From a virus: a stretch of 20,363 nucleotides of DNA. Positions within the stretch are counted from its first letter, which is position 1; the number at the start of each line of letters is the position of its first letter. The position numbers and the translations under genes were made by a program. Where the stretch lies: positions 1 through 20,363 of IMG/VR virus record IMGVR_UViG_3300047300_000390; one strand, given 5' to 3'. Positions 3,051 to 19,596 of the stretch are shown here, in pieces. Under the pieces are notes generated by a model. The model was not told the origin of the DNA and did not search any database. It saw nothing but the letters and a program-made list of their open reading frames with translations.

Positions 3051-3446
3051 ATGGATTCCTTAATTAACCCAGAAACTGGCGAACCAATCGTCAAGAATGT
3101 ACGTAGACAAGTTATTGAAAAGAAATATAACTGGGGACTATACGTGTACAAGAAGTCAAACGGTAAGTGGTTTACTGATGGAGAAGGTAATGTCCTTAAC
3201 ATTGAGTCAATGCGTAATGACATAACAAAAATAGCAGAATTAAAAGCAGCTGCAAAGCATTATGGAGATGAAGGCGACGGAGAAGCAGTATTTGTTCCTG
3301 GTCTAACACGAATCACTGATGAAGAGTACACAGAGCAAATGGATCGTATGAAGTCTGGACTTATCCCATCTATGAATGATCTTGGTGCATGGCATGCAGC
3401 CCAACAAACGCTAAACAAGGCGGGTAAGGATATGTTTGATGAGTAA
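3051..3446 (+). CDS. Unknown 131-residue protein encoded before the portal
   Basis: I do not recognise this family. The protein is soluble, mixed-charge and without membrane segments. Its N-terminal half holds a basic patch (VRRQVIEKKYNWG) and a YKKSNGKWFTDGEGN segment that looks like a beta-hairpin. A helix rich in Lys and Ala follows, then an acidic stretch, a short VFVPGLTRI strand and a C-terminal helical part ending DMFDE. The ATG at 3051 is preferred over an in-frame TTG at 3012, because the TTG lies inside the terminator hairpin and upstream of the -10 element. The gene overlaps the portal start by 8 bases (ATGAGTAA), so it is coupled to the portal. Position next to the portal suggests a head-assembly or packaging role, but nothing in the sequence proves it. 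Confidence 0.75.
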   Translation: MDSLINPETGEPIVKNVRRQVIEKKYNWGLYVYKKSNGKWFTDGEGNVLNIESMRNDITKIAELKAAAKHYGDEGDGEAVFVPGLTRITDEEYTEQMDRMKSGLIPSMNDLGAWHAAQQTLNKAGKDMFDE

Positions 3447-7632: not shown

Positions 7633-7872
7633 ATGTCATATCCAGGAACACCAGAAAGCCACACACACGTTGCTGAAGGGGCTATCGTGACACTGGGTAA
7701 CCCAGGAGTCATAGTAATGGGTCCAGGGGGCTTACAGGTCAATACAATGGGTACTATGGGGCAAGCAAACATGGGTGATACATCTGGGCCAAATGCTGTT
7801 AACCCATCTGGAACACCAAATGGTATTAGACTTCCTTCTCAAAATAATTTTGGCAGAGGAAGACGACGCTAA
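7633..7872 (+). CDS. Stand-alone paralog of the capsid protein N-terminal arm
   Basis: A 79-residue protein that aligns with residues 9-72 of the major capsid protein: YPGT is shared, then HTH, EGA, an AN-x-GD block, and VNPSGTPNGIRLPSQ against VNPVGTPGGILLPEQ (11 of 15 identical). The middle is rich in Gly, Met and Val. It lacks the capsid fold itself and ends instead in a basic FGRGRRR tail. No named family comes to mind. ATG 7633 has AAGGAGA (7622-7628) at good spacing, so it is a translated gene and not a remnant. It lies directly behind the capsid terminator. Possible roles: a decoration or cement protein that binds where the arm binds, an assembly regulator that competes with the arm, or a head-tail adapter. 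The similarity is seen in the sequence; the roles are inference. Confidence 0.8.
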   Translation: MSYPGTPESHTHVAEGAIVTLGNPGVIVMGPGGLQVNTMGTMGQANMGDTSGPNAVNPSGTPNGIRLPSQNNFGRGRRR

Positions 7873-10978: not shown

Positions 10979-11617
10979 ATGGCTAATTACAGTCGTGGTA
11001 CATCAACCAACATTATCGTTGGTGCAGCAGCAGTATTCGTTGCAGATACAACACTAGACGCATCTTCAGTTACAGCTTTTGAGTCTTCAAAGACTTTCAG
11101 AGACACACTTACTAATGATGTTGACTACACAAACGTTGGTTACACAATGAATGGTCTTGAACTGCAGTTCCAGCCTGACTTCGGTGAAGTTAAGGTTGAC
11201 CAGATTCTTGACGTTGCAAAGCTTTACAAGCAGGGAATGCAGGTCTCACTTAAGACAGCATTTGCTGAAGCAACACTAGAAAACCTTCTTCTTTCTTTGG
11301 CTTACAGCGATTCAAAGCTTACAGGAACAAAGTCAACTTCAGCAGGACAGGCACTTGACCTTTCTGCAGGAGACATTGGCGAGTGCCCAGTTGAGCGTGG
11401 TATCGTAGCAGTAGGTCCAGGAACAGGAGATTGCGTAGATTCAGCTTATGTAGAGCGTGTTTACACAGCGTACCGTGCACTCTCAATTGAGAATGTTACA
11501 GTATCTGCTAAGCGTGACGAAGCTTCAATGTTTGAAGTTTCATTCCGTCTCCTCCCAGAGGATACATCTGGTTCATATGGTAAGATCGTAGATCGTACTT
11601 GGACACCAGCATCATAA
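10979..11617 (+). CDS. Major tail tube protein
   Basis: A 212-residue protein that would stack as hexameric rings around the tape measure to form the tail tube. The first 60 residues have the N-arm of tube proteins: a short start, AAAVFVADTTLDASSVTAF, and then a beta-hairpin VGYTMNGLELQFQPDFGEVKVDQI, which is the most typical segment for this family. A helix-like stretch (ATLENLLLSLAY) and a C-terminal strand set with VERVYTAYRALSIENVTVSAKRDEASMFEVSFRLLPED complete the fold. The ribosome binding site is strong. Arginine codons are CGT in seven of eight cases, as in the capsid gene, fitting high expression. A strong terminator lies about 20 bases after the stop. Next come the two chaperones and the tape measure, in the expected order. 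Confidence 0.82.
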   Translation: MANYSRGTSTNIIVGAAAVFVADTTLDASSVTAFESSKTFRDTLTNDVDYTNVGYTMNGLELQFQPDFGEVKVDQILDVAKLYKQGMQVSLKTAFAEATLENLLLSLAYSDSKLTGTKSTSAGQALDLSAGDIGECPVERGIVAVGPGTGDCVDSAYVERVYTAYRALSIENVTVSAKRDEASMFEVSFRLLPEDTSGSYGKIVDRTWTPAS

Positions 11618-11638
11618 TTTAATAAATTATACGGCTTA

Positions 11639-11671
11639 GCCCACTTCTTCGGAGGTGGGCTTTGTTGTTTT
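11639..11671 (+). terminator. Strong terminator after the tail tube gene
   Basis: GCCCACTTC (11639-11647) pairs with GAGGTGGGC (11652-11660), one G-U pair, closed by a TTCG tetraloop in the very stable C(UUCG)G context. TTTGTTGTTTT follows. This should separate the abundant tube mRNA from the tail chaperone and tape measure genes. Confidence 0.88.
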
Positions 11672-11672
11672 G

Positions 11673-11681
11673 TGCTAGAAT
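11673..11681 (+). promoter_or_regulatory. Extended -10 promoter for the long chaperone, near-leaderless
   Basis: TGCTAGAAT ends 9 bases before ATG 11691 and directly follows the terminator T tract. No -35 hexamer and no Shine-Dalgarno are visible, as at the protease gene, where the spacing is the same. Confidence 0.55.
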
Positions 11682-11690
11682 AGATAGACT

Positions 11691-12398
11691 ATGGCAACAA
11701 CAATATATCCAATAAATAAAGTTATTTTATTTGGCGGAGAAGAACTAGAAATCATTCCTTTGAAGATTAAATATCTTCGTGAGTTTATGACCAATTTTGA
11801 CAAGATTAAACTAACAAAAAATGATGATGAAGCCATAGATGTTTTGGTTGAGTGCGTCAGAATATGTATGAAGCAGTATTATCCAGCAATATCAAGGTCA
11901 GTATCAGACATAGAGGACAACTTTGATCTGCCAGGAATATATCAAGTCCTTGATTTTGCTGCAGGAATTAAGGTCAACAGTGGCTCAGAACAACCAGTAA
12001 AAACACAAGCATTGCAAAGTAACACAACCTGGGAAGATTTTGATCTTGCTAAGCTAGAGTCAGAAGTATTTTTGCTGGGTATATGGAAAGATTATCAAGA
12101 ACTAGAACTATCCTTGTCTATGCCAGAATTAATAGCAACTCTGGAAATAGGTAGAGAGATGGATTATACAGAAAAGAAATTTCTTGCTGCTATCCAAGGT
12201 GTTGACCTAGATGCCGAAACTGGCAAGGGTGGACAGAAAGAATGGGAAGACCTTAAGGCTAGAGTATTTAGTAAGGGTGCAACATCTGATGCAGATGATG
12301 TTCTTGCCTTACAGGGAGTAAATGCTCAAAAATTAGGGTTTGGTATTGGGATGGGACTGGACTATGAAGACGGAAGAGACCCATCTCTTATGCTATAA
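11691..12398 (+). CDS. Long tail assembly chaperone (G-plus-T type, unbroken frame)
   Basis: Helps the tape measure and tube proteins assemble; not expected in the finished virion. The 235 residues have an N-terminal domain (1-96) with IIPLKIKYLREFMTNF, VECVRICMKQYYP and FDLPGIYQVLDFAAGIK, followed by a linker and a C-terminal domain starting TTWEDFDLAKLESEV and including MPELIATLEIGREMDYTEKKF and AAIQGVDLD. The second domain matches the downstream part that in most long-tailed phages is reached only by a programmed frameshift. Here it is in the same frame, so no frameshift is needed. The N-terminal domain is paralogous to the following gene. The start has no Shine-Dalgarno but follows a -10 element at 9 bases, so it may be translated weakly from a leaderless mRNA. 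Identification rests on domain pattern and position before the tape measure. Confidence 0.75.
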   Translation: MATTIYPINKVILFGGEELEIIPLKIKYLREFMTNFDKIKLTKNDDEAIDVLVECVRICMKQYYPAISRSVSDIEDNFDLPGIYQVLDFAAGIKVNSGSEQPVKTQALQSNTTWEDFDLAKLESEVFLLGIWKDYQELELSLSMPELIATLEIGREMDYTEKKFLAAIQGVDLDAETGKGGQKEWEDLKARVFSKGATSDADDVLALQGVNAQKLGFGIGMGLDYEDGRDPSLML

Positions 12399-12399
12399 T
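12391..12399 (+). promoter_or_regulatory. Extended -10 promoter for the short chaperone
   Basis: TGCTATAAT overlaps the stop codon of the long chaperone. Transcription would start near 12406, giving a leader of about 19 bases containing AGGAGG (12415-12420). No -35 hexamer is evident because the upstream bases are coding. Confidence 0.55.
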
Positions 12400-12424
12400 T
12401 AGTGTAGCCTATATAGGAGGAAAA

Positions 12425-12757
12425 ATGGCAACAACAGTACATGAGAGTAAAGAACTTACACTCATGGATGGAACAGTAATCAAAGTGAGACCTCTCAAGA
12501 TTTCATTACTACGCCCATTCATGACTAAGTTTGAAAAGGTGGCAGAGGTGGCAGAAGATAATGAGAAGTCAATGGCTCTCCTTATGGAATGCGTACAAAT
12601 TGCTATGGAGCAGTACAATCCAGATCTAGCTAAAGATATCAATGCTTTGGAAGACATTCTTGATCTTCCAACAGTCTATGACATTATTGAGGCAGCATCA
12701 GGAGTTAAGTTAACAGACGCAAATGCACTACTTAACACAGTGCTTGCAAATAACTAA
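12425..12757 (+). CDS. Short tail assembly chaperone, paralog of the long one
   Basis: The 110-residue protein aligns along almost its whole length with residues 1-96 of the preceding protein. Shared elements are MATT at the start, PLKI with LR-x-FMT-x-F-x-K, EC-V-x-I-x-M-x-QY-x-P, ED with DLP, and a final Ala-Ala/Gly-x-Lys region; roughly a third or more of positions are identical. It lacks the C-terminal T domain. It therefore corresponds to the short (lambda gpG-like) partner that other phages make by not frameshifting. It has its own promoter candidate and a good AGGAGG ribosome binding site, so it is probably made in excess over the long form. No second reading frame follows it before the tape measure. 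Confidence 0.8.
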   Translation: MATTVHESKELTLMDGTVIKVRPLKISLLRPFMTKFEKVAEVAEDNEKSMALLMECVQIAMEQYNPDLAKDINALEDILDLPTVYDIIEAASGVKLTDANALLNTVLANN

Positions 12758-12789: not shown

Positions 12790-15700
12790 GTGGCTGACGT
12801 AAATGCTAATATAGGCGTACATATTGATACGACCCAAGCACTTGCGGGACTTAAAAACTTACAGCGACAACTAGCTACCTTTCACTCTTCAGTTGCACAA
12901 GGAAGTGCACAAACAGCAGCAGCTCAAAGAAGCCTGCAAACTAATCTATTAAATTCAATTAATGCAACAGGTATGTTCACGGCCAAGATGGGCCTTGTTA
13001 GAACATCCACAGAGTCTTTTACTCATGCCCTTGAAAACAATAAGCTTTCAATGGGTCAATACTTTAGATACGCTGGAGCATCAACAAAGACATTCGGAAG
13101 AATGTTTAAGTCAGAGTTTGACACAATTGGCAAGGTAGCTCAAGACCGTGTAAAGAAGATGCAGACCCAGTATATTAAGATGGGTCGTGATGCAGCAGGA
13201 GCAACCAAGGCAATGTCAGTTACACCTCTGACATTAAACATGAAAGACTTTGGAACTCAAGCAGCAATTGCAGCACAGAAGCAAGCATTATTTAATCAGC
13301 TCGTAAAGCAAGGATCTACAAACTTACTTAACTTTGGTAAGAATACTCAGTGGGCTGGTCGTCAGCTTATGGTTGGTTTTTCTATTCCTCTTGCATATTT
13401 TGGAGCTGCAGCAGCTAAAACATTTATGGCATTAGAGGCACAGGCTATCAGATTTAAACGTGTCTATGGTGAAATGTTTACAACATCAGATCAAACTAAT
13501 AAGGCACTCAAGGATATAGAAGGCTTAGCAAAGAGCTTTATTCAATATGGTGTCAAGATGGAAGATACCATGAAGATGGCAGCAGATGCTGCTGCAATGG
13601 GTAAAATGGGTGCAGACCTTACTGCTCAAGTTGCACAAGCAACAAAGCTTGCAGTACTTGGTAGCGTTGAACAAGAGAAGGCATTAGAAACAACAATTTC
13701 CTTAACTAATGCATTTGGTATTTCTGCAGACCAGCTTGCAAATAAAATTAACTTTCTTAACGCAGTTGAAAACCAGACTGTAGTAAATATTGAAGATCTT
13801 ACAACAGCTATTCCAAAGGCTGGACCAGTTGTTAAGCAGCTCGGCGGTAGCGTAGAAGACTTAGCCTTCTTCCTTACAGCAATGAAGGAAGGCGGAATCA
13901 ATGCCTCAGAGGGAGCTAACGCACTCAAGTCTGGTTTGGCCTCTCTTATTAATCCAAGCAAAAAAGCAGCAGAAATGCTCTCTGGTCTTGGTATTAATAT
14001 TAACGGAATTGTTGAGGGCAATGCAGGAAACCTTAAAGCAACAGTAGTAGGGTTTGCACAGGCACTAGATAAGTTAGCACCACTTGATCGTGCTAGAGCA
14101 ATTGAGCAACTATTTGGTAAGTTCCAGTTTGCTAGACTATCAACATTGTTCCAGAACATCACTAAGGATGGAACACAGGCAAATCGTGTTCTTGGACTAA
14201 CAAATGCTAGCGTTGAAGAACTTGCTATCTTGTCCGAACGAGAAATGGCAAAAGTCAAAGATGCTGTTGGAACAAACTTCAAGGCATCCCTAGAAAGCCT
14301 CAAGGTTTCTATGGTTCCAGTTGGAAAAGCTTTCCTTGAAGCTGTAACCCCAATTGTAAAGTTTGTTGGAAAAGTTTTAGAAAAATTTAATGGTTTAGAT
14401 GACGGCGTTAAGAAATTTATTGTTACAGCTGGAGCCCTTGTAGGAATTATTGGTCCAATTCTATTGATGACATTTGGTTTGGTCGCAAACGGTGTTGCAA
14501 ATATTATTAAGCTTTTCTTGGCAATGCGTATGGGCTTTAGCAAAATTGGTGGAAGTAGTAAGATTCTTGCAGAACAAACTACATATTTAAATGCAGCACA
14601 ACTTGAGTCAGCAACTGTAGCAGCATCACTTAATCAGGCACACTCACAGTTAACACAAAAATTTGAATTTGAAGCAGCAGCAGTTAGAGCACTAAGAAAT
14701 GCATATGTTGAGGCAACCATTGCAGCAGGAAAGTTTGCAAGAACAAATCCAGGAGCAATGCTTCCTCCTCGTGCAGGTGGAGCTGGACCAAGAAAGTTTG
14801 CAACAGGAACAACAAGTGTACCAGGCCCAAGAGGTGCTGGTGATGTTGTCCCATCATTGCTATCTCCAGGAGAGGCTGTTATTCCTGCTCCAGTTGCTCA
14901 AGATCCTAACTTTAAACCAATTATTGAGGGTATGGTAAACGGTAGAATTGGAATGCATGAGTCTGGTATTACCTATGCAGGAAAGCCTCAAACAGCTGGT
15001 AACGGCAAGTCTGCTCTAGTAACAAGAAAACAACAGGCTATTCAGAGATACTTTGATCTTAAGTATGGGCCAAAGTCTACTGCAACTCCAGAAATGAAGG
15101 CAGCATACGAGTCAAACAGAAATGGCTTTAAGGATTTATCCTCTAGACTTGTTTATGATAACAAGACAAAGATGTACACATATCTTGGCAAAGATGGTAA
15201 GCCACTATCTGTAATGACCTCAAAGCAACTTGAACAACAGATTAAGTACACCTTTAAAGAAACACAAAGCAAGATGGGTGGTACTTCAAATAGACCAACA
15301 ACTCCATCAACACTTGACAGATACCTTGGTAGACTTGGCAAGCCTGGAACAGGAGCTCCTTCTGCTGTAAGAGCACTTAGAGCAAAGCTTAACGCTCAGT
15401 TCCCAGATAAAGAAGGAGCTAATCTCCATGCTGAGTTAAAAAAGGCTGGACTCAATGATCAAGAAGTCAAAAAATTTATGGGGTCAAAAGAAGAGTCTCA
15501 TATTCTTAAGCCAAAGGATTCAGCTAAAAAGTGGCAAAGCGGACACACTATATCTGATCATGCAGGACTTAATAACTATCTAAATCGTGCAGGTGGATCT
15601 TCTGTTGGTAAACTTATAAATAATCCAAAGATTGGTCTTCCAAAATCTCAAGGTGGTTTAGGATTAAGCCAACAAGAAATTAAGCAACTAAAGAATGATT

Positions 15701-18700
15701 ATAGATTTGCTCAGTCTCAAAAGCATCCAACTAACCCAGCCGAGCTTGCAAAGATAGCAAGAATTGCTGGTCTTGAGGTTGCTGCAAATAATGCTGGAAT
15801 TGCTAAGATAGATAAGGTTTTCCAGGCTAAGGGTGTTCTTGCATTAGCAAAGGTCAGAACTCCAGAATTCTATAAGGATATTGCAAAGACAATCGTTAAG
15901 CTTGGTCCAACACCAAAACCACTCTCTGAAGTTGTAGCTGTTGCTAAGGGAGAAAAGGTTGTTGCTAAGGGTAAACGACCAGTAACCTTAACAGGACAAA
16001 ATACAGAGCCAAAGCCTGCGGGAATGCAAACAACAAGCAGAAACGTAGCAGACAATAGAGTTGCAAATATTCCAAGAGGTGCATCTATTATTCCAAGAGG
16101 AGTAAGAGTTAGAGGTGCTATTAGTGGACTAGATGGAACTCCTCCATCAGCTGCAGTTTCAAGCATGGATAGACAGTTTAGAGCAGAACAAAATTCTTTG
16201 CGTCGTCAGATTGAACTACAAGAAAAAAGAAGACTTTCAGCACTTAGAGCAGAAGCAAGACTAAAACAACAAGAGCAGATGAGAGCTAAGCAAGCAGAGG
16301 CAAACCGACTTAGAATGGCTAGAGAAGATGCCAAGGTTTCAGCAAAAGCAAGAGCTGGACTAACTAAGTTTAGCGAAAAGGCAACTGCTGGTATGGGTGC
16401 ACTTAGCAGCTTAACCATTGCTGCATCATTTGCTGGTGGATCTGTTGGAGATATGGCACAAAAGATGATGCCATTTATTTTTGGTTTGCAAGGTGTGGCA
16501 ATGTTACTTCCAGCATTAGTTAAGTGGCAAGGAATGCTTGGACTTACAGTTGCTGCGTTTGTTGGTGCACAGATGTGGATTAATGCTTCTGCAAGTAAAG
16601 CAAGAGACAAGATGTTAGATTTAGCAGATGCAACTGGTGCTACTTCAGAAAACATGAAAAAGCTTTCTGAATTTGCTGGAACTGTAAGTGCAGCAGAATT
16701 ACTAAACTACAAGAAGAGCAAGATGTTTAGTCCTCTTACTGTAGCACAAGGTAAGAGTAGCTTTGGAGAAATGTTTGCTCAGTCAGAACAAGGAAAGTCA
16801 ACTGCAGCTGGATTACGTGAAATCATAAGCAAGCAAGGAACAAAAGAAGGAATAGAAACATTAAAGACACAATTATCTGCAGCTGTAGCATCTGGAGTAT
16901 TTTCAACAGCACAAGCTAGAAGTATTGCTCTTAGCATTGGAAGAGAAGTTGGAAATCTTCAAGTAGGACTGCAGGTCAATGCAGAACTTGCAAACCTATT
17001 TGGTCCAGATGGCAAAAATATTTTGGGTACAAATGGAATTAATCTTCGTGTTAATCTAGTAGAAGATCAACTTACAAAAGCACAAAACCTAGCAAAAATG
17101 GCAACAGGAGATGCTGGACTTATGGGAGGAAAACTTCCTATAGGAGATAACAGAGTCCTTGGTGGAGGAATGGACAAGGGACTGTTTACTGGTTTGTCAA
17201 TTTTAGGTACAGCGTCAACTGGAGTTCAATTAGGAGCTGCAGCAGGTGCAGGAGTAGGAGCCCTATTTGGAGGCGTTGGAGCAGCCCCAGGAGCCGCTAT
17301 TGGGTCTGTTGTAGGAGGAATCATAGGTATTGGTGCAGGAGCTGTTATGGCAGCCAAGTACATGGGGCAAGCCTCAGCAAGAGTAGCAGGGTTTGCTGCA
17401 CAAACAACAACTGCCTATAAATCAGCAAGTGATTTAAGCAATCAAATGCAGGCAGCACTACAGCTATCATATGCTGATGCAATTAAAAGAGCTAAGCTTG
17501 ATGGAGATATTGAAAAGGTTAGAAGGCTTGAATTAGAGCTTGCAGAAAAAAGCTTAAGATTACAGCAACAAGGTCAAAGAACAAGACAGTCTGCTGTTGA
17601 TTTTTATGCAAACTCTAAGGGCTTGACCAGAAGAGAAACAAGAAAAGCTCTTGAAGAAACAACAAAGCGTAAATATAAAGATGATGCAATTCAGTCTCAG
17701 TATGTAAGTTCAGCAACAGGTGTGGCAAAGGAAATGAGCGGTACACTTGAGGGTAAGATTCAGATGATGATGAATTATGGATCAATGACACCATCACAAA
17801 TTGTTGCCTTTGATCAAATGTTTGCTGATAAAGGAACAAAGACTAAGATGTTCAATATTGTTGCACAAATTGATACTAAATTTGGTGGAATAGTAGGCGG
17901 ACAAGCAACAGATATTGCTGGTGGATTTACTGATCTTTTGGGAAATCCAAATGAAGAAGTTACAACAAAGTTCTATGTTGATATTAGAACAGCAAAAACA
18001 CAAGGTGAAGTTGATAAGCTACTCAATCTTTATGGAACAATATCTGCTGGTAGTGGTTTCCTTGATGTTGGAATGCTTGTTTCTTACTACCAGAAGAATC
18101 CAAAAGCTGCAGCAGAGCTAGAAAAGCAAATTGAAGCAGTTCAGGCTAATAGTGGAAAGCTTGACATTCAAGTTCTTCAAACATTCTTACCTCCAAAGAT
18201 TCTTGGAGCATTTAACCAAGACTACTTTAAGGGGCTTGACCAAAATGCTCGTCACGTGTACACTACAACAATTGCACAAATTCTAGATGTTAAGGACCCA
18301 AAGATCATTACAGAAAGTGATGACTTTGAGCTATGGATGGGCGAAACAGGCAAGTACGGTGGAGCACAGTATAAGGGGCAAAAGCACTCAAGACAGTGGT
18401 GGGCAAATACTTATGCTGAAGGAAAAGCTCAAAAGATTACTACAGAAAGCCCAAGCCTAACTCCTGTAATGGGGCCAAATGGTGGTGGTAATGGTGGAGG
18501 TAAAGAACGAGATACTACATATGATGAAATTCTTAATGACTTAAAACGCACTAGAGATGGAACCATTGATGTAACAAAGGGAGCAAAAGAGCTTCTTCGT
18601 GTTCTTGGTGGAAAGAAAGATATAACAATCTTTAAGGGGCTTGATCAGCAGTTAGCTAAGCTTGGTGCAAATACAGCATTTATTGACTGGGTAGGAAGCC

Positions 18701-19596
18701 TAGAGAAGAACGTACAAAATAAGCTAATAAGAGTTGCAAAGAATGGCGCAGTAGCCCTTACAACACTTGGAAATGCTGCAAAGAAGGCTTTTGATGAAAG
18801 AGCTCTTGGTAGATTTAGCGCAGAGTCACAAAATGCAATTACAGCTGCAAAGGCTCAAAGAACAGCATTCTTAAAGCTCAAGATTGCAGGAGTTGAAACT
18901 ACAGAAGCAATTGACTTAGTTGCAGATTCTGAGTTTGCAATCGCAGTATCTTCACAAAAGAGCTCTGGCGAAATAAAGAAGATGGTTGATGAGTGGAAGA
19001 CCTCAAAGCAACAAGCTGAATTAACTCTTGCTATGACTGATCCAAAGAAGTACTTTGCTGATATTAACGATGAGTTAAAGAGACAGTACGACTATCAGCA
19101 AAAGATTATGGCACTACAAAAGAGTGCAACAGAGTCAAAGATTGCTGGAGATTATATCGGATCAGCAATGATTGGTCAACAAAAGATTCAAGAAGTTTCA
19201 GACTTTAACGCTGAGTCAAAGAATATTGATTTTAATAGCAAGCTTGCTACAATGAAGGAAGCTCTTAAGGTTATTAGCAGCTCAAAGTTTAAGGACCCTA
19301 AGCAACAAGCGTTAATCCAGTCAACATTAAGCCAAGGAATGCTAGGAATAGAGCAGTTAAGAGCATTTAGTCCAGACCTAACAAAGGCAGCAGCATTACA
19401 AACAGGTGCTCCTGGAGTTTCAAATACATTTAATAGCACACCATCTTCAACTACACCAACTGCTGGAACAGTGTATAATGTTACTATGACAGTAAATGGG
19501 GCTAATGCAAATGCAGCGGATATTGCTAATCAGGTAATTAAGAAGCTTGGTGTAAAAAATACACAAAACAATAAGACAAATGCGGTGACACCATAA
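12790..19596 (+). CDS. Tail tape measure protein
   Basis: Sets tail length and is ejected ahead of the DNA. At 2268 residues it predicts a tail near 340 nm. Start is GTG 12790 with GGGAGGTG (12775-12782). N-terminal helices (1-200) are followed by the tape-measure core (about 200-480) with VKMEDTMKMAADAAAMGKMG near 255 and AMKEGGINASEGANAL. Hydrophobic segments lie at about 543-579, 1227-1264 and a glycine-zipper-like stretch at 1469-1526, all candidates for membrane insertion. FATGTTSVPGPRGAGD with SPGEAVIP (670-700) is a common tape-measure motif. Residues 720-1090 form an unrecognised insert. A basic Arg/Gln/Glu coiled coil spans 1126-1198. The C-terminus (TVYNVTMTVNGANANAADIA) is typical. 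Arginine codons shift strongly to AGA after about residue 630. No lytic or peptidase domain was recognised. The stop overlaps the next start (TAATG). Confidence 0.95.
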   Translation: MADVNANIGVHIDTTQALAGLKNLQRQLATFHSSVAQGSAQTAAAQRSLQTNLLNSINATGMFTAKMGLVRTSTESFTHALENNKLSMGQYFRYAGASTKTFGRMFKSEFDTIGKVAQDRVKKMQTQYIKMGRDAAGATKAMSVTPLTLNMKDFGTQAAIAAQKQALFNQLVKQGSTNLLNFGKNTQWAGRQLMVGFSIPLAYFGAAAAKTFMALEAQAIRFKRVYGEMFTTSDQTNKALKDIEGLAKSFIQYGVKMEDTMKMAADAAAMGKMGADLTAQVAQATKLAVLGSVEQEKALETTISLTNAFGISADQLANKINFLNAVENQTVVNIEDLTTAIPKAGPVVKQLGGSVEDLAFFLTAMKEGGINASEGANALKSGLASLINPSKKAAEMLSGLGININGIVEGNAGNLKATVVGFAQALDKLAPLDRARAIEQLFGKFQFARLSTLFQNITKDGTQANRVLGLTNASVEELAILSEREMAKVKDAVGTNFKASLESLKVSMVPVGKAFLEAVTPIVKFVGKVLEKFNGLDDGVKKFIVTAGALVGIIGPILLMTFGLVANGVANIIKLFLAMRMGFSKIGGSSKILAEQTTYLNAAQLESATVAASLNQAHSQLTQKFEFEAAAVRALRNAYVEATIAAGKFARTNPGAMLPPRAGGAGPRKFATGTTSVPGPRGAGDVVPSLLSPGEAVIPAPVAQDPNFKPIIEGMVNGRIGMHESGITYAGKPQTAGNGKSALVTRKQQAIQRYFDLKYGPKSTATPEMKAAYESNRNGFKDLSSRLVYDNKTKMYTYLGKDGKPLSVMTSKQLEQQIKYTFKETQSKMGGTSNRPTTPSTLDRYLGRLGKPGTGAPSAVRALRAKLNAQFPDKEGANLHAELKKAGLNDQEVKKFMGSKEESHILKPKDSAKKWQSGHTISDHAGLNNYLNRAGGSSVGKLINNPKIGLPKSQGGLGLSQQEIKQLKNDYRFAQSQKHPTNPAELAKIARIAGLEVAANNAGIAKIDKVFQAKGVLALAKVRTPEFYKDIAKTIVKLGPTPKPLSEVVAVAKGEKVVAKGKRPVTLTGQNTEPKPAGMQTTSRNVADNRVANIPRGASIIPRGVRVRGAISGLDGTPPSAAVSSMDRQFRAEQNSLRRQIELQEKRRLSALRAEARLKQQEQMRAKQAEANRLRMAREDAKVSAKARAGLTKFSEKATAGMGALSSLTIAASFAGGSVGDMAQKMMPFIFGLQGVAMLLPALVKWQGMLGLTVAAFVGAQMWINASASKARDKMLDLADATGATSENMKKLSEFAGTVSAAELLNYKKSKMFSPLTVAQGKSSFGEMFAQSEQGKSTAAGLREIISKQGTKEGIETLKTQLSAAVASGVFSTAQARSIALSIGREVGNLQVGLQVNAELANLFGPDGKNILGTNGINLRVNLVEDQLTKAQNLAKMATGDAGLMGGKLPIGDNRVLGGGMDKGLFTGLSILGTASTGVQLGAAAGAGVGALFGGVGAAPGAAIGSVVGGIIGIGAGAVMAAKYMGQASARVAGFAAQTTTAYKSASDLSNQMQAALQLSYADAIKRAKLDGDIEKVRRLELELAEKSLRLQQQGQRTRQSAVDFYANSKGLTRRETRKALEETTKRKYKDDAIQSQYVSSATGVAKEMSGTLEGKIQMMMNYGSMTPSQIVAFDQMFADKGTKTKMFNIVAQIDTKFGGIVGGQATDIAGGFTDLLGNPNEEVTTKFYVDIRTAKTQGEVDKLLNLYGTISAGSGFLDVGMLVSYYQKNPKAAAELEKQIEAVQANSGKLDIQVLQTFLPPKILGAFNQDYFKGLDQNARHVYTTTIAQILDVKDPKIITESDDFELWMGETGKYGGAQYKGQKHSRQWWANTYAEGKAQKITTESPSLTPVMGPNGGGNGGGKERDTTYDEILNDLKRTRDGTIDVTKGAKELLRVLGGKKDITIFKGLDQQLAKLGANTAFIDWVGSLEKNVQNKLIRVAKNGAVALTTLGNAAKKAFDERALGRFSAESQNAITAAKAQRTAFLKLKIAGVETTEAIDLVADSEFAIAVSSQKSSGEIKKMVDEWKTSKQQAELTLAMTDPKKYFADINDELKRQYDYQQKIMALQKSATESKIAGDYIGSAMIGQQKIQEVSDFNAESKNIDFNSKLATMKEALKVISSSKFKDPKQQALIQSTLSQGMLGIEQLRAFSPDLTKAAALQTGAPGVSNTFNSTPSSTTPTAGTVYNVTMTVNGANANAADIANQVIKKLGVKNTQNNKTNAVTP

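Follow-up and report, generated by a model that had tools for sequence, protein, structure and literature searches.

Separate genes with asymmetric start signals for the long and short tail assembly chaperones in a group of uncultured actinobacterial viruses

Introduction

The frameshift that produces tail assembly chaperones is among the most conserved recoding events known. To our knowledge, nearly all known long-tailed viruses obtain both chaperone forms from one gene by means of a ribosomal slip. This conserved frameshift of the long-tailed phages has been reviewed (PMC5009743). In phage lambda, a short protein consisting of the N domain only (gpG) and a long N-T protein (gpGT) are encoded before the tape measure gene, and both are made from one gene by a -1 frameshift at a ratio of about 30:1 (PMC5009743).

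Among isolated phages, chaperones with homologous N and T domains are found in the Stanwilliamsviridae, where the Streptomyces phages Coruscant, Gilson and Stanimal share about 34–38% identity over the long protein with the locus described here. As in this locus, their chaperone genes lie between the major tail protein and the tape measure protein genes. They differ in having one gene with a T open reading frame in the -1 frame, and neither a second G nor a fused GT.

The locus analyzed here lies in a window of 20,363 bases, taken from IMG/VR virus record IMGVR_UViG_3300047300_000390. A preliminary description of this DNA held that the long chaperone (GT) is one unbroken frame, that the short chaperone (G) is a separate downstream gene which arose by duplication, and that differing start signals could provide the excess of short over long protein. 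In the following, the domain composition of the pair, its distribution among relatives, its start signals and its origin are described and compared with known systems.

Materials and Methods

Relatives were collected by scans of IMG/VR, yielding about 480 loci which represent the best matches of each scan and not a census. Domain models built from alignments were run over all forward frames, and identical sequences were removed. Start signals were counted in 70-base upstreams, 181 distinct ones for GT and as many for G; because the upstreams share common descent, the counts are not independent of one another.

Results

Gene Order and Domain Composition

The window exhibits the gene order portal, protease, capsid, connector genes, major tail protein, GT, G and tape measure protein (Table 1). 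GT and G thus sit between the major tail protein and tape measure genes, which is the position of a chaperone pair. The position of the major tail protein gene matches that annotated in Coruscant, and the tape measure protein is the expected client. Just 5' of the structural genes lies a ribonucleotide reductase gene (929-2962; phrog_367, 3.9e-143). Elsewhere in the window, a 79-residue open reading frame with its own Shine-Dalgarno sequence (7633-7872) follows closely on the major capsid gene. It is paralogous to capsid protein residues 12-75 (44% identity, 4e-12), and the window thus contains two cases in which a short downstream frame resembles an N-terminal segment; a survey for this capsid paralog in 13 long relatives gave one match each only, mostly in frames of capsid-gene length.

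Table 1. Features of the chaperone locus, given as positions in the window.
Feature	Position	Strand	Remarks
Major tail protein gene	10979..11617	+	Directly 5' of GT; phrog_2175 1.5e-35, phrog_885 major tail protein 5.7e-05
Intrinsic terminator-like hairpin with T tail	11638..11661	+	Predicted to end the major tail protein transcript
Extended -10 of GT, TGC TAGAAT (TGCTAGAAT)	11673..11681	+	9 nt before ATG; predicted leaderless start
GT, long tail assembly chaperone	11691..12398	+	One unbroken frame, ATG 11691 to TAA 12398, 235 aa
G-like N domain of GT	11691..11990	+	Residues 1-100; aligned with G, phrog_10504
T domain of GT	12024..12371	+	About residues 112-227; phrog_10474
Extended -10 of G, TGC TATAAT (TGCTATAAT)	12391..12399	+	Overlaps GT stop codon 12396-12398
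Shine-Dalgarno AGGAGG of G	12415..12420	+	4 nt before G ATG
G, short tail assembly chaperone	12425..12757	+	110 aa, paralog of GT N domain
Tape measure protein	12790..19596	+	Directly 3' of G; phrog_10030 tail length tape measure protein 1.9e-99

The unbroken frame of GT stands as first described, and an in-frame TAG two codons 5' of its ATG makes this ATG the first possible start. The paralogy of G and the N-terminal part of GT is borne out by direct alignment (GT residues 1-99 against G residues 1-100, 37% identity and 67% positives, E 1e-25) as well as by profile-profile comparison of the two families (98 columns, probability 99.9, 1.3e-35). HMM searches against protein families, suggested in the preliminary description as a check, revealed that both GT and G match phrog_10504 (1.7e-17 and 1.9e-19, respectively) and that residues 131-224 of GT match phrog_10474 (1.4e-13). 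Furthermore, the T half of GT shares 41% identity with the T open reading frame which Streptomyces phages carry in the -1 frame, and GT therefore corresponds to the frameshift product, encoded in one frame, and G to the unshifted product. Neither of the two outcomes named as refuting in the preliminary description was observed, since the C-terminal half of GT does match T-domain proteins and the two N domains are homologous by profile. The two proteins share the N domain while the T domain is confined to the long one, as in a chaperone pair. Homologs occur in 130 isolated-phage records, 127 of them Streptomyces phages, where the features under the matches are mostly annotated as tail assembly chaperones; the window proteins are thus homologous to accepted members of this class. 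All isolated-phage records with a G match (127/127) contain exactly one N-domain place, so that none holds a second N copy detectable by a G search.

Searches of Pfam and NCBIfam returned nothing above cut-off for GT or G, and no relative turned up when profiles were run against PDB sequences. The lack of a Pfam family for G would suit a reading in which the short frame encodes an unrelated regulator whose pairing with GT is a coincidence of annotation. Such a regulator is close to untenable, being contradicted by the profile homology of G to the GT N domain and to the single-gene relatives described below (profile E 3.2e-56), by the invariant place of G before the tape measure gene, and by purifying selection, which acts on both copies (median dN/dS over the first 40 codons of 0.35 for the GT N domain and 0.17 for G).

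AlphaFold models of G and GT (mean pLDDT 75.5 and 71.7) give G and the GT N domain the same layout of two strands plus helices. Foldseek found no match below E 0.001 in the PDB for either model, and the fold link therefore rests on a second look at the G model with VIA-align, where the HK97 tail chaperone 2OB9 came out on top (a weak Z of 4.4 over 89 residues, with unrelated rows within 1 Z), and on matches of the GT model to named tail assembly chaperones in a viral library. As evidence for chaperone identity, the modeled folds are weak.

Distribution of the Two-Gene Layout

Among the distinct loci free of contig-edge cuts, a fused GT with a separate G is present in 217 and a single gene whose T lies in the -1 frame in 52; no other layout occurs. 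Within this set, an unbroken GT never occurs without a separate G, nor does a frameshifted gene occur with a second N domain. Two loci with T and N (L110 and L138) and eight with N-T only were considered as further layouts and rejected as contig-edge fragments. The survey of related phages called for by the preliminary description hence recovered the two-gene form in 217 distinct relatives, a recurrence which argues against a chance arrangement. The two-gene layout is fixed throughout a large group of uncultured actinobacterial viruses.

The actinobacterial host type is suggested by WhiB, an actinophage marker (PMC10202952), which is present in all 13 long relatives. A search of bacterial genome contigs retrieved only L485 (CAINGU010000031.1), a distant single-gene relative in a metagenome-assembled genome labelled as a cyanobacterium, which names no host. 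In this 110-kb contig, which is probably of phage origin, the overlap contains CCCAAAC and T lies in the -1 frame.

Frameshift Sites

In-phase canonical slippery heptamers are present within the overlap in 44 out of 44 metagenomic single-gene loci, with GGGAAAC in 40, GGGAAAT in one, CCCAAAC in two and CCCAAAT in one. The twelve Streptomyces-type loci carry CCCAAAT in two cases and C CCG GAA at the matching place in ten. A shifted T frame reached through a slippery site is thus found in the 52 single-gene relatives but not in GT or G. In fact, 203 of 236 GT linkers lack an in-phase canonical heptamer, and those of the remaining 33 differ from each other, none being conserved. A search of the G ends gave no slippery heptamer in 208 of 234 and no conserved one in the others. 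The claim that this locus does without a frameshift is thus upheld by the open frame of GT and by its linker, where no slippery heptamer is conserved.

It is nevertheless conceivable that frameshifting persists at a non-canonical site in GT or G, the second gene being a redundant paralog. The A-rich heptamers found in phase in 33 of the 236 linkers could be taken in this sense, and the Streptomyces relatives themselves use a non-canonical site of the CCCGGAA type. A hidden frameshift was, however, sought in both genes and not found: no heptamer is conserved in the linkers or the G ends, G ends 32 nt short of the tape measure start and has no T-like frame behind it, and the full-length product already exists in the form of GT. 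We therefore regard a persisting frameshift as highly improbable.

Start Signals of GT and G

A terminator-like hairpin precedes GT in 115 of the 181 distinct upstreams, as opposed to 0.2 in shuffled sequences. It is followed by a conserved element: TGNTANNNT ends 4-12 nt before the GT ATG in 171/181 upstreams (shuffled mean 4.8), with a spacing of 5-9 nt, mostly 6-9 nt, in 168 of the 171 loci that contain it. A Shine-Dalgarno sequence of at least 3 bases is missing from 168 of the 181 upstreams, and the start codon is ATG in all 233 cases. In Mycobacterium tuberculosis, the -10 motif is centred 7-12 bp 5' of the start site, promoters with a TGN-extended -10 are stronger, and about a quarter of the transcripts are leaderless; leaderless mRNAs are common in actinobacteria (PMC3898074). 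Applied to the GT spacing, this geometry predicts a transcript that begins on the ATG or no more than about 3 nt away from it. Judged by sequence criteria, i.e., a -10 placed for a transcript start no more than 5 nt from the start codon, the missing Shine-Dalgarno and the ATG start, the GT mRNA is predicted to be leaderless, which would also account for the missing Shine-Dalgarno. Two further genes, at window positions 3051 and 5114, are likewise preceded by an extended -10 (TGGTATACT and TGGTATAAT) that ends 7-9 nt before their ATG, and leaderless starts may therefore be common in this phage. In a subgroup of relatives (L194, L196, L198, L199, L215 and L218), the extended -10 and the GT ATG are 13-15 nt apart and enclose a G-rich stretch, a pattern resembling the addition of a short leader that carries a weak Shine-Dalgarno.

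In the case of G, TGNTANNNT is located 23-38 nt before the ATG in 179/181 upstreams (shuffled mean 7.6). The hexamer is TATAAT in 177 of these 179 elements, giving a near-invariant TGnTATAAT followed by a leader of ~25 nt, and the full AGGAGG precedes G in 139/181. None of the 181 G upstreams contains a terminator-like hairpin. Comparing both genes in the same locus (n=143), the consensus -10 occurs before G only in 112 loci, before both genes in 29 and before GT only in none; among the GT elements, 39/171 have this consensus. Across the upstreams, spacing and flanks vary and the elements are kept. Moreover, the G element stays beside G where 172 nt (L033) or a whole gene (L279) separate GT and G; in the latter locus (L279:3694-4450), a foreign gene is inserted between the two, and the putative promoter and Shine-Dalgarno of G remain beside G. 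The single-gene relatives show the G-type start geometry in 38/39 cases and a terminator-like hairpin before the gene in 22/39.

No -35 element was seen 5' of GT or G, and neither site yielded a sigma-70 pair above chance in a scan for consensus promoters, so that the assignment of promoters rests on the conservation of the extended -10. A search for a phage-encoded sigma factor gave none over cut-off in the 13 long relatives. A palindrome over the G leader (CCTATATAGG) was considered as an operator or as a hairpin masking the Shine-Dalgarno and was dropped, as it is not kept in all relatives. On the basis of these elements, we infer a promoter for each gene and a leaderless start for GT. Of the start signals given in the preliminary description, the -10 without Shine-Dalgarno at GT and the AGGAGG of G stand, but the extended -10 of G and the terminator before GT had been overlooked.

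Origin of the Pair

Both the Streptomyces outgroup and the metagenomic single-gene relatives use frameshifting, which is therefore the likely ancestral state and was likely replaced by way of duplication; both N domains would then descend from a single-copy ancestor. In N-domain trees, G is grouped with the metagenomic single-gene relatives (100/98; 100/97). A larger sequence set places it beside L383 and L389, within these relatives (96/76), and a smaller set did not resolve the nesting. In a tree of the major tail protein, the metagenomic single-gene phages form one clade (96/90) inside a group that includes the two-gene phages (100/100); this tree requires no more than the minimum number of changes and does not fix their direction.

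In the best N-domain trees, the GT N domain falls outside the clade of single-gene relatives and G (moderate support of 74/85, 93/88 and 95/94), and as drawn it lies beyond the Streptomyces sequences. Such a placement would suit a history without tandem duplication, in which the fused GT came from a different phage lineage and the frameshifting gene already present lost its T part to become G. However, a clade uniting G and GT is not rejected (p-AU 0.275), and between GT and the metagenomic single-gene relatives the T domains are equally close (about 75% identity, 70 residues). In addition, the GT N domain changes at about twice the rate of G (mean dN of 0.18 vs 0.10 for identical pairs of loci), and a higher substitution rate can itself cause an outer placement. 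Taken together, acquisition appears somewhat unlikely. The earlier claim that the pair was made by gene duplication thus remains the simplest reading, although the N-domain trees do not prove a single tandem duplication.

Discussion

In this group of phages, the long and short tail chaperones are encoded by two genes without a frameshift, and the asymmetry of their start signals is conserved. We consider it quite probable that two genes have here replaced the frameshift and that an excess of G arises from nested transcripts with unequal start signals. An ancestral frameshifting gene would have been duplicated, with one copy becoming fixed in the G-T frame and the other losing T. GT would be transcribed from the extended -10 just after the terminator and translated as a leaderless mRNA, and G from its own TGnTATAAT promoter with a short leader carrying AGGAGG. 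As no terminator was found between the two genes, the transcript from the GT promoter may run on into G, and a second, stronger transcript would start at the G promoter. Such nested transcripts would lead one to expect more mRNA for G than for GT, an excess to which AGGAGG would add; since G has a strong promoter-like element of its own, the difference is predicted at the level of transcription as well as translation. It is plausible that the start signals thereby yield more short than long protein, in place of the ratio formerly set by frameshifting. By analogy to the lambda model, G would coat the tape measure protein, and a few GT molecules would recruit the major tail protein (PMC5009743).

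Observations from mycobacteria bear on the expected level of GT. In Mycobacterium smegmatis, both protein and mRNA were lower from leaderless reporter constructs than from leadered constructs, but across the M. tuberculosis genome the protein-per-mRNA slopes of leaderless and leadered genes do not differ, i.e., there is no general difference in translation efficiency (PMC7148126). A low level of GT is thus not guaranteed by a leaderless start as such. The pair offers a plain example in which leaderless translation plausibly keeps one member low.

The two genes could also have been retained for a different purpose, with the N domain of GT specialised for a tail-tip or initiator complex, promoter differences reflecting timing, and the ratio of the proteins not being set by the start signals; stoichiometry would then be less important than it is in lambda. 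The faster evolution of this domain and its own branch in the N-domain trees agree with such a role; yet faster evolution alone is no proof of a new role, and the start-signal asymmetry is kept in nearly every locus and always favors G. Specialisation of GT is, in our assessment, decidedly unlikely to be the explanation.

Returning to the replacement of the frameshift by two genes with unequal start signals, we lean towards a broader interpretation. A major actinophage lineage would have lost a near-universal frameshift and hard-wired the chaperone stoichiometry by nested promoters, with a leaderless minor and a Shine-Dalgarno-led major mRNA, and its sister group would have kept the old mechanism. 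If true, control of one and the same ratio would have passed, in nature, from recoding to transcription and initiation. Since close relatives differ in using either the slip or two genes, it becomes testable whether tail assembly needs the ratio and not the frameshift as such. In practical terms, a large group of environmental phages would be misannotated by pipelines designed to find a joined frameshift gene.

Among other systems, the closest relatives of the two-gene phages are the metagenomic single-gene loci (e.g., L188, L214, L244, L383 and L392), which share about 75% identity with GT in the T domain and have an N domain that aligns with G, and, as in the window, a terminator and an extended -10 upstream. 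They differ by a slippery GGGAAAC or CCCAAAC/T with T in the -1 frame, and by a leader which carries a Shine-Dalgarno. For T4-like phages, an article by Vladimirov, Gautam and Davidson of 2022 (Virology 566:9-15) reports a non-frameshift chaperone mechanism in its title; it is cited elsewhere for polyT slippage signals, and the mechanism may thus not consist of two genes. A partial search of the literature found no duplicated tail chaperone replacing a frameshift, no fused GT with a paralogous G under separate promoters, and no switch of this kind within a lineage. Chaperone pairs without an evident frameshift are mentioned for some subclusters of the Microbacterium phages of cluster EA (PMC7302621), where the passage, compared here by description only, speaks neither of a long fusion gene accompanied by a short paralog nor of promoters for each. 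As far as the literature searched goes, chaperone pairs without an evident frameshift are therefore known from some Microbacterium phages, and the combination of a fused GT with a paralogous G under separate, predicted promoters appears to be new.
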